Translations under genes and position numbers: made by a program
Part shown: one piece after another, positions 7,475 to 10,459 of the stretch
Layout of the letters: every line of letters begins with the position of its first letter
Position numbering within the stretch: position 1 is the stretch's first letter
The notes under the pieces: model-generated
What the model saw: the letters and a program-made list of their open reading frames with translations, nothing else
The model's database searches: none
What the model was told of the DNA's origin: nothing
Origin: Methanotrichaceae archaeon
GTDB lineage: Archaea; Halobacteriota; Methanosarcinia; Methanotrichales; Methanotrichaceae
Length of the DNA stretch: 64,000 nt
Direction of reading: 5' to 3'
NCBI GenBank assembly: GCA_013178225.1
Contig: JABLXE010000001.1
Span: 186,001 to 250,000, forward strand

Positions 7475-8350
7475 ATGAGAAAAATCTTGGCTATCACCGT
7501 GGCCCTCATGTTTGCAGCGCTGGTCTTATCGCCTGCAATGGGGTACACTATTCAGACAGCTGGTAATCAGTCTTACACCGTTCAATCTGCTGGTGACCGG
7601 CAGTATTCCGCCCACTCCGAAGCAATAAATTACACCGTAAGTTCAGGAACGCCAGCTCACGAGCTTACGCTGGAGTCGATTCCCACCAAGACAGTCTCCG
7701 GACCTGCAGTCCAGACCACCAAAGTTGCCAGTTCCTTCAAGGCCGGAAGAGTCGTCCCCTACACCGTAACCCTGGGAACCGGCGCAAAGGCAGTCTCTGA
7801 GGGCGTGCAGGTGGCCAAGGAGCCTGCCAGCCTGGGCGAACAGACCACACCCGCTGCGACCACTGCTCCTGCAGCAGAGACACCAGTTGTAGAGGCTGCG
7901 CCGGCCACCGAGACGGCGGCAGTAGAAGCTCCTGCAGCCGAAACTGCAGCCCCTGTGGAGGAGCCGAAGTTCTCCATAATGGGCACCGTGTTCGATGATG
8001 CAAATGGAAATGGTGTTATGGACGAGAACGAGACCGGCCTTGCCGATTGGACCGTGGCCCTGGGCGAGCCTGCCGGAGCTGTACTGGCCAATGCCACCAC
8101 TTCCGAGACCGGATCTTATGCGTTTGCTGACCTTCTCGCTGGCGAGTACGTCGTCTCTGAGGTCGTGCCCATGGGCTGGGCCCTGATTGCACCTGTCGAC
8201 GGCAAGTATATGGTCAATTTGACTGTGGATGCAGCAGGCCTGGACTTCGCCAACCAGATGCTTCCAGCTCCTGAGCCCGCGGTTAACGAGACCTTTGAAC
8301 TGGAAATGCCACCAGAAAACATAACCATACCTGAGCAGCCTGTCGCTTAG
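7475..8350 (+). CDS. Secreted protein with one SdrD/Cna-B-like domain
   Basis: 291 residues. A clear signal peptide (about 1-23, ending in a small-residue site before YTIQTAG) is followed by Gln/Ser/Thr-rich repeats, then an Ala/Pro/Glu/Thr-rich linker (about 125-165). A single B-type domain starts near GTVFDDANGNGVMDENETG, whose acidic loop resembles the calcium loop of SdrD B repeats, and runs to VPMGW. The C-terminus is Pro/Glu-rich with Asn-x-Thr glycosylation sites. A strong AGGAGGT lies eight bases before ATG. Likely an envelope or sheath-surface protein; no catalytic residues seen. Confidence 0.75.
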   Translation: MRKILAITVALMFAALVLSPAMGYTIQTAGNQSYTVQSAGDRQYSAHSEAINYTVSSGTPAHELTLESIPTKTVSGPAVQTTKVASSFKAGRVVPYTVTLGTGAKAVSEGVQVAKEPASLGEQTTPAATTAPAAETPVVEAAPATETAAVEAPAAETAAPVEEPKFSIMGTVFDDANGNGVMDENETGLADWTVALGEPAGAVLANATTSETGSYAFADLLAGEYVVSEVVPMGWALIAPVDGKYMVNLTVDAAGLDFANQMLPAPEPAVNETFELEMPPENITIPEQPVA

Positions 8351-8620
8351 GCGATCTGCTCATATCCTTATTCTTTTTCTAAATCGATGGCCCTGAGGGG
8401 CTTCAAGGTTCGTTCTCTGAATTGTCCACCGCTTTGCCTCAGACCAACAGATTTAAGTAAATCATACTTGCTTATAGTAAAATATACTTGGAACATCGGT
8501 CCGAGTATAGCAAATCACCCTTAAATCCCCGGCAGGAGAGGACGAAAAACTCCCTCCACCTCCTGCCTTCCAATTTCGATTTGATTCGATCCGTCACGGT
8601 TGCCGTGACCCGAAAACCCC
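8351..8620 (+). other. Intergenic region with two inverted repeats
   Basis: No gene is supported here. Two perfect inverted repeats are visible: GGCAGGAG (8531-8538) with CTCCTGCC (8560-8567), and GTCACGG (8593-8599) with CCGTGAC (8603-8609) over a three-base spacer. The second sits about a dozen bases before a TATA box, where an archaeal regulator could bind; the first may belong to the 3' end of a transcript. Confidence 0.45.
8593..8609 (+). promoter_or_regulatory. Palindrome upstream of TATA box, candidate operator
   Basis: A 7-3-7 perfect palindrome (GTCACGG, TTG, CCGTGAC) ends 11 bases before the TATA box at 8621. Position and symmetry fit a dimeric regulator site next to the BRE/TATA element. 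As RNA it would be outside the predicted transcript, so a DNA role is favoured. Confidence 0.4.
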
Positions 8621-8628
8621 ATATAAAA
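8621..8628 (+). promoter_or_regulatory. TATA box for the structured leader and DUF333 gene
   Basis: ATATAAAA at 8621-8628. The expected start of transcription, 25-27 bases beyond its centre, is 8650-8652, which coincides with the 5' strand of the closing helix of the leader RNA. Confidence 0.6.
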
Positions 8629-8648
8629 TGCCGTTCATAACCTGAAAA

Positions 8649-8772
8649 ATATGCCTGTGGGGGAATTAGCTTCTGGCGTAGGGATGCGAATCGGTCGCTG
8701 CCTGCAGCAGATGCAGGTTTACGCCGGAAATTGAGTTTTTCCAGCAATCTAATGGATAGATCCCAGGCATAT
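8649..8772 (+). ncRNA. Highly structured 5' leader RNA, riboswitch-like candidate
   Basis: A closing helix of nine perfect pairs (8649-8657 with 8764-8772) is continued by ATTAG/CTAAT (8665-8669 with 8749-8753). Inside are GGCGTA/TACGCC (8675-8680 with 8720-8725), which itself encloses hairpins GCGA/TCGC (8686-8689 with 8695-8698) and CCTGCA/TGCAGG (8701-8706 with 8712-8717), plus GGAAA/TTTCC (8726-8730 with 8738-8742). This is two nested multi-way junctions in about 124 bases. It starts where the TATA box predicts initiation and ends 30 bases before the ATG at 8803. It does not show the conserved boxes of riboswitch classes I know well. Confidence 0.55.
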
Positions 8773-8802
8773 CATCTCGAGGTGTTTCGTGGGGGAACTT
8801 AA

Positions 8803-9333
8803 ATGACGAGAAGAACTAGCTTTATGAAATTGCTGATTATCGTGGCCCTCTCAATGATCATTGCAGAGCCTGTGTGGGCGCAGGGACTGGGCGGAGGACC
8901 GGGCGGATCGTGCACGTACAATCCCAGAAATCCGGCAGAGGTCTATTGCGTATCTCGCGGCGGCTGCCCGCAGGGCGGGAACTGCTATTTCCCGGACGGG
9001 TCTTACTGTGAGCTGTGGTCCTTCTACAACGGGACTTGTCCCGGTGAGGGATACTATGAGCAGATGCTTTGGGAGGCCGAAGCTTACCGCTTCCTTTACG
9101 GAGATCTGGTTCCTGTGTCCTCGTTCTATACGCCGTACGGCACATCGGTAACCTCGGCTCCGGCGACCACAACCTATCCCAGCCAGTATTATGCGGGTCA
9201 GTATTATTATCCCTATTACTATCCATACTATTATCCTTACTACTCGTATTCTTACCCCTATGGCTATTACGGCTCGACAGGACACACGTACTATGGCGAC
9301 TATCTGACCCCTGCCGGAGGGCTGAGCGGGTAG
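8803..9333 (+). CDS. Secreted DUF333-domain protein with Tyr-rich tail
   Basis: 176 residues. Signal peptide about 1-26 (ending VWAQ). Residues about 36-78 match the DUF333 pattern: NPAEVYCVSRGG, a Cys pair around GNCYFPDG, CELWSFYNGTC; the six Cys of this part could form disulfides outside the cell. The tail (about 125-165) is a Tyr/Pro/Ser/Gly low-complexity stretch of YYPYY-type units, like adhesive or structural surface proteins. The ATG at 8803 has GGGGG about six bases upstream; an ATG at 8824 is possible. Expression appears to be controlled by the palindrome and structured leader in front. Confidence 0.7.
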   Translation: MTRRTSFMKLLIIVALSMIIAEPVWAQGLGGGPGGSCTYNPRNPAEVYCVSRGGCPQGGNCYFPDGSYCELWSFYNGTCPGEGYYEQMLWEAEAYRFLYGDLVPVSSFYTPYGTSVTSAPATTTYPSQYYAGQYYYPYYYPYYYPYYSYSYPYGYYGSTGHTYYGDYLTPAGGLSG

Positions 9334-9700: not shown

Positions 9701-9913
9701 ATGGAATGTTGCGATATAACCAGGAATTTTCTGGCAGGAAGAAAGGGACGGATGCTCAAAGTGCTGATAGAGGGTGGAGGGCTGACGCCTGTTACCGGCA
9801 AGCTGGTGGACTTCGACGATGCGGCTATGGTTCTGGAGATTCCCAGCGGAGAACAATGGTTGATCGACATTGATTACATAATCAAGGTGGCAGATACGAC
9901 CGAGGAAGGATAA
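9701..9913 (+). CDS. Small Sm-like (beta-barrel) hypothetical protein
   Basis: 70 residues. The middle (LKVLIEGGGLTPVTGKLVDF, then DDAAMVLEIPSGEQWLIDIDYIIKV) alternates like the five strands of an Sm-type barrel, with the Gly-x-Leu-x-x-Phe-Asp pattern seen in Sm motif 1. It is shorter than true Lsm proteins and lacks the RNA-binding Sm2 signature, so RNA binding is not claimed. AGGAGAT lies nine bases before ATG and a nine-base inverted repeat adjoins it. It stands alone between secreted-protein genes and converges on the next minus-strand gene. Confidence 0.5.
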   Translation: MECCDITRNFLAGRKGRMLKVLIEGGGLTPVTGKLVDFDDAAMVLEIPSGEQWLIDIDYIIKVADTTEEG

Positions 9914-9991: not shown

Positions 9992-10459
9992 TCAGACGAT
10001 ATCACACACGAACACCATCTTTCCCACGTCCCGGCAGGGCTTGATGGGAATTCCTACCTCAAAGGTGTCCTTAGGCTTGGCGTTTCCATTTACCACAAAG
10101 ACCCGGTCGCTCTCAAGCCCGGTTCCGATTTTTAGGACTTTTTGTCCCTGTGAAGAGGTTTCAGCCACTTGAGGTGCGGTGTCTTCAGCAACGGGCTCGA
10201 TTGCCGCCACAGGCGACTCCTCCGAGCTGACATTTTCAGCTGCTGCACTCTCTATGCTTGCATTCTCTTCAGAAACGTTCTCGTCTGCAGTGATAATGAC
10301 GGCTGCATCTGGAGCTGCGAACTCCAGAGTGGTGTTATTCATAGTAGTATTGTTCAGGGTGATGTTCAGTGCCAAGCTACCCTCTTGAGCGGGAACGGAA
10401 ACAGTTGCCGCCATCAGTAAGGCCATTATGCCCATGAAATATATAATCTGAGTTTTCAT
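9992..10459 (-). CDS. Secreted, Asn-glycosylation-rich hypothetical protein
   Basis: 155 residues. Signal peptide about 1-25 (cleavage near VPAQEG), then an acidic Ala/Glu/Thr/Val-rich linker with many Asn-x-Thr/Ser sites (NITLNNTTMNNTT, NVSEENAS), and a compact C-terminal part of about 45 residues with two Cys (IKPCRDVGKMVFVCDIV) that could form a disulfide. No family recognised. It lies 77 bases downstream of the ABC ATPase on the same strand and may be read through from that operon, which would make it a candidate substrate or accessory. Confidence 0.6.
   Translation of the reverse strand: MKTQIIYFMGIMALLMAATVSVPAQEGSLALNITLNNTTMNNTTLEFAAPDAAVIITADENVSEENASIESAAAENVSSEESPVAAIEPVAEDTAPQVAETSSQGQKVLKIGTGLESDRVFVVNGNAKPKDTFEVGIPIKPCRDVGKMVFVCDIV

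Follow-up and report, generated by a model that had tools for sequence, protein, structure and literature searches.

In the window, the 64,000-nucleotide stretch of Methanotrichaceae DNA analysed here, we found two structured elements side by side in one intergenic region. Directly ahead of a DUF333 gene lies a multi-branched leader RNA that folds beyond chance, as measured by its z-score against dinucleotide shuffles. Just upstream of it lies a probable copy of a previously undescribed two-hairpin RNA type. Taken alone, the leader, whose fold is lineage-specific and whose function is uncertain, is of modest weight; it stands outside any known or conserved riboswitch class, and the neighbouring RNA family is the more interesting result. 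For the leader itself, the most likely reading, which we hold tentatively and at less than even confidence, is that a short ancestral leader was expanded in this lineage and may now exert translational control in cis.

Fold, promoter and gene of the leader

The elements of the leader and its surroundings are as follows.

7475..8350, plus strand: gene of an SdrD_B-type secreted protein, the upstream neighbour, conserved in 18 orthologous loci
8593..8609: perfect 7-3-7 palindrome GTCACGG-TTG-CCGTGAC immediately upstream of the promoter, a possible operator
8611..8628, plus strand: promoter, BRE-like CGAAAAC and TATA box, aligning with the orthologues' promoters
8621-8628, plus strand: the TATA-like ATATAAAA, with CGAAAA upstream
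8648-8773, plus strand: multi-branched leader fold, predicted
8649-8657/8764-8772, plus strand: closing helix P1, nine perfect pairs, predicted
8658-8667/8734-8743, plus strand: P2, 10 pairs including G-U, predicted
8671-8681/8719-8729, plus strand: P3, 11 pairs, branching into P3a and P3b, predicted
8686-8689/8695-8698, plus strand: P3a, predicted
8700-8706/8712-8718, plus strand: P3b, predicted
8747-8751/8757-8761, plus strand: P4, a small hairpin, predicted
8803..9333, plus strand: gene of a 176-aa DUF333 (PF03891, E 1.2e-7) protein with a Tyr-rich tail, secreted as judged from its N-terminus

The minimum free energy of 8648-8773 is -50.8 kcal/mol (z about -3.9), a value that none of 200 dinucleotide shuffles reached, and among the 1,014 scan windows of 126 nt on the plus strand of the 64 kb it has the third lowest z. 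Lower values were obtained only for the scan windows at 8443 (-5.3) and 8506 (-4.3), which share its intergenic region, while the longer segment 8640-8803 gave a z of -3.0. The minus strand folds equally well (z = -4.5), so that the fold alone cannot fix the strand and the assignment rests on the promoter. Elsewhere on the plus strand, a low-z fold at scan window 9892 (z -3.85) lies near the end of a DUF6897-like small ORF (9701-9913) and also near a convergent gene (9992-10459), and is possibly a terminator region.

An earlier sequence-only reading had described most of this architecture, and its nine-pair closing helix, its branching of one helix into two hairpins, its TATA box, the palindrome before it and the 30-base gap between the end of the structure and the gene were all recovered. 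The helix that extends P1 is present as well, with 10 pairs instead of the five claimed. From the promoter, transcription is predicted to start at about 8647-8651. Given the positions of the TATA box and of the ATG at 8803, the folded stretch very probably forms the DUF333 gene's 5' leader, which is the location expected of a riboswitch; that it is exactly the leader, as had been claimed, depends on a start that is only predicted. The accompanying generalisation that archaeal leaders are usually short does not extend to all methanogens, since in Methanolobus psychrophilus the median 5' UTR measures 55 nt and 24% exceed 150 nt (PMC5378194).

The palindrome ahead of the promoter occurs once in the genome, and sites with up to two mismatches number 13 against 12 in the control; an operator regulon was rejected because the site is unique and its near-matches stay at the level of the control. 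The other perfect 7-3-7 site falls within a coding region. Upstream of orthologous DUF333 genes (loci L039-L061), the TATA region lies within an inverted repeat, TCAACC-AATAATCTTTCATA-GGTTGA, which takes the form TCGACC/GGTCGA in L049 and suggests an operator placed over the promoter at those loci.

Proposed expansion of the leader and the readings it allows

Is the folded leader shared by the relatives? DUF333 proteins were matched in 35 of 50 family genomes, the window's own genome counted and some of the matches covering the domain only, and the fold is absent from the orthologous leaders, where the SdrD_B-type gene is often the upstream neighbour as well. A 12,645-base contig from a Methanotrichaceae MAG likewise lacks the leader. 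The gap between the SdrD_B-type homologue and the DUF333 gene measures 89-213 bp in 18 related loci, compared with 452 bp here. The orthologues carry CCAAAAATCTTTCATAG or a similar promoter, with the Shine-Dalgarno (SD) sequence GGGGGA mostly 35-37 nt past it (27-28 in some, 60 in one) and the start codon close behind. At this very place, 38 nt past the TATA box, the window has the first of two copies of GTGGGGGAA. The features that bear on this comparison, all on the plus strand, are listed here.

8651..8734, plus strand: candidate 27-codon upstream ORF, from the predicted 5' end of the transcript
8657..8665, plus strand: first GTGGGGGAA copy, the presumed ancestral SD
8666..8797, plus strand: putative 132-bp expansion relative to the orthologues, flanked by the GTGGGGGAA direct repeat
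8731..8743, plus strand: anti-SD strand UUGAGUUUUUCCA, with the 5' copy (in P2) or 8790-8802 as its partner
8789..8797, plus strand: second GTGGGGGAA copy, the working SD, 5 nt before the ATG at 8803

The comparison suggests, as its simplest reading, an expansion of 132 bp downstream of the ancestral SD, by which the extra sequence, edged by the repeated SD, would have pushed the gene away from its promoter. A nine-base repeat arose in 79 of 2,000 shuffles, in a test picked after the sequence had been inspected, and no second copy of the leader stretch was found in the window's own genome.

The same sequence offers an alternative helix that would mask the SD. Positions 8731-8743 can form 13 contiguous pairs with 8790-8802, from the SD up to the start codon; such a helix was obtained in 4 of 2,000 leader shuffles and in none of the window's 69 long ORFs, where the maximum was 11, in a comparison that was likewise chosen after inspection. 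In the mechanism we take to be most likely, control of translation in cis, 8731-8743 would in an ON state be bound to the upstream copy, in P2 within the fold closed by P1, leaving the SD weakly paired, and in an OFF state it would be bound to the stretch from SD to AUG. The calculated energies are -59.5 kcal/mol for the P1/P2 fold and -49.2 kcal/mol for the SD-sequestered fold, and the OFF state, less stable by about 10 kcal/mol, is essentially absent from the equilibrium ensemble. Thus, in the predicted default the SD is held only in a weak five-pair hairpin, and a factor disrupting P1/P2 would be needed for switching, which could be a protein, the ribosome, temperature or co-transcriptional folding.

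The fold, the promoter motif, the repeat, the alternative helix and the absence of the structure in relatives are computed features, and on the model built from them a cis translational switch in the DUF333 leader is possible, with a regulatory role that would be exerted through the alternative SD pairing. Translational riboswitches and other SD-sequestering leaders follow a similar design, in which two mutually exclusive helices share a strand and one of them masks the SD; in contrast to these, the present leader comes without a conserved aptamer, a second member or a ligand, and its predicted default is strongly ON. Against a switch it also counts that U/C-rich stretches pair easily with G-rich SDs, and that the structure has no homologue by which covariation could support its base pairs.

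Almost as likely as a functional cis element is a neutral or nearly neutral insertion, in which a hairpin-rich stretch would have come to lie behind the ancestral SD and been tolerated without its fold having a regulatory role. The stretch is single-copy and without a homologue in 237 other genomes, the orthologues do without it, both strands fold equally, and inverted repeats are abundant across the whole intergenic region, all as a tolerated insertion would have it. What such an insertion leaves unexplained is that P1 joins nine bases predating the expansion (8649-8657) to nine inserted ones (8764-8772) with perfect pairing, and that the pairing between SD and anti-SD exceeds that of shuffles.

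An attenuator governed by a leader peptide is considerably less likely. The 27-codon ORF opens at the predicted 5' end and closes with a stop codon (8732-8734) inside the anti-SD strand, so that ribosomes translating it would set the choice between P2 and SD pairing. Leaderless mRNAs are frequent in one related methanogen, Methanolobus, at about 16% (PMC5378194). A chance ATG is, however, not rarely followed by an open frame this long, and there is no homologue by which coding conservation could be judged. We regard as more improbable still that the stretch is the relic of a mobile element with the terminal inverted repeats ATATGCCTG/CAGGCATAT (8649-8772) and possibly a TA target duplication. 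Its 9-bp inverted ends are perfect and the orthologous sites lack it, yet the genome holds no further copy, and the end ATATGCCTGTGGGG occurs at 7 sites with up to two mismatches against 6 in the control; neither the several copies nor the shared ends that mark MITEs and other mobile elements were found in the window's own genome.

The least probable of these explanations is that the DUF333 gene is controlled by a ligand-binding riboswitch of a new class. To this the multi-branched fold, the exact leader position and a possible expression platform would be suited; against it stand the lack of a second member anywhere tested, orthologous leaders included, the lack of an Rfam match, and a secreted protein that hints at no ligand. 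The riboswitch-like character proposed by the sequence-only reading thus found no comparative support. No Rfam family reached its gathering score over the leader, and a permissive search returned three weak snoRNA matches, none of them on the leader fold. A covariance model of the leader detected no second member in its own genome, among the family genomes or in a further 237 genomes of the class; since the model derives from a single leader sequence, and stricter filters apply in many-genome searches, a homologue that has diverged far could have escaped it. With no homologous structure found, the proposed test by compensatory changes cannot be passed, and because no relative shares the folded leader, a riboswitch cannot be shown.

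The fluoride riboswitch of Thermococcus kodakarensis is, according to PMC8241225, the only natural archaeal riboswitch determined experimentally, and the present leader does not add a second. Both are archaeal 5' leaders with putative translational control; the differences are that no riboswitch family of Rfam matches here and that the DUF333 gene is unrelated to fluoride export. The archaeal L7Ae kink-turn leader is likewise a structured leader beside a translation start (PMC6298567), whereas no tandem-GA kink-turn was seen by eye in the internal loops here.

Two-hairpin RNAs of the Methanotrichaceae

The two scan windows with the lowest z lie just upstream of the leader (8443-8570) and cover a promoter and two hairpins, which together are probably a small-RNA gene.

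8442..8482, plus strand: promoter of the putative small-RNA gene, conserved up to the predicted start, with the TATA-like TTTAAGTA at 8452-8459
8483..8567, plus strand: putative body of the small RNA, with hairpin 1 (8483-8492/8500-8509) and hairpin 2 (8531-8538/8560-8567), the latter with a CU-rich loop

By blastn, 8442-8494 matches sequences in three other genera of the family (E 4e-5 to 1e-3), and in four genera (the window, L093, L094 and L123) the element lies 53-96 bp 3' of the SdrD_B-type gene. A promoter profile (R2) built from four sequences, the window copy among them, matched in 30 of 50 Methanotrichaceae genomes. The part common to these matches is the promoter, consisting of the BRE, the TATA-like motif and conserved bases up to the predicted start. 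Five matches, at L121, L130 (17885), L132 (2565), L135 and L136, were rejected as RNA genes, being promoters of ordinary protein genes. Across the window positions 8454-8491 and in L082, 16-bp units like AAGTAAAATATACTTG recur at 20-bp spacing over the small-RNA promoter, possibly as a tandem operator.

Many of the R2 matches head a two-hairpin RNA composed of a 5' hairpin 1 closing on AUGC, the single-stranded GUCCAUUCA, a long hairpin 2 and AUCUCCC. Its loci lie within L097-L138 (e.g. L098 1421-1515, minus strand, and L120 1139-1233, plus strand) and occur in two settings, as stand-alone genes, frequently on the 3' side of a gene whose sequence motifs mark it as that of an ABC-transporter ATPase, and as leaders of a conserved protein of roughly 90 aa (MAEEK..LKMKDINEAL), the first 60 residues of which have no Pfam match. 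A covariance model (R3) trained on the stand-alone type finds the protein-leader type too, including one example in the window's own organism (G000:C27, E 4e-8). Searched against 188 genomes from other families of the class, it had no match, and Rfam gave none for the two-hairpin RNA.

In the alignment fitted to the model, which includes four opposite-strand matches, 17 of the 21 pairs show changes on both sides, with 58 cells against 13.7 expected and none of 500 shuffles as high, counts that are inflated by relatedness and by the fitting itself. Sliding the partners destroyed the signal. Alignment A6 by itself gave weak covariation, and there was none in the mixed family alignment A4, in which helix 2 is misaligned.

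The window body (8483-8567) is unmatched by R3 at E<=1, so that what links it to the family is only its promoter, its layout and its synteny. The CU-rich single strands of the family show complementarity to such G-rich SDs as UUGGGGGAU, which makes an action in trans on translation possible, and the CU-rich second loop of the window copy (CUCCCUCCAC) could pair with the GUGGGGG present in both SD copies, as any CU-rich loop can with G-rich SDs. We put forward only tentatively, and with a little less confidence than the cis-controlled expansion, that 8442-8567 is a copy of this undescribed Methanotrichaceae RNA family, members of which might affect translation in trans, the folded DUF333 leader serving as a cis target. 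Like sRNA162 of Methanosarcina mazei (PMC3510493), which comes from a methanogen of the same class, the two-hairpin RNA would be a small RNA; it would differ in lacking an Rfam match and, by R3, any match in the 188 genomes outside the family.

The Methanotrichaceae include the acetate-using Methanothrix methanogens. Should the DUF333 leader prove to switch, it would represent a cis translational switch of a kind rare in archaea and of recent origin, the unexpanded state of which is visible in relatives, and the two-hairpin RNA gives the family a specific candidate, backed by covariation, for a new non-coding RNA.
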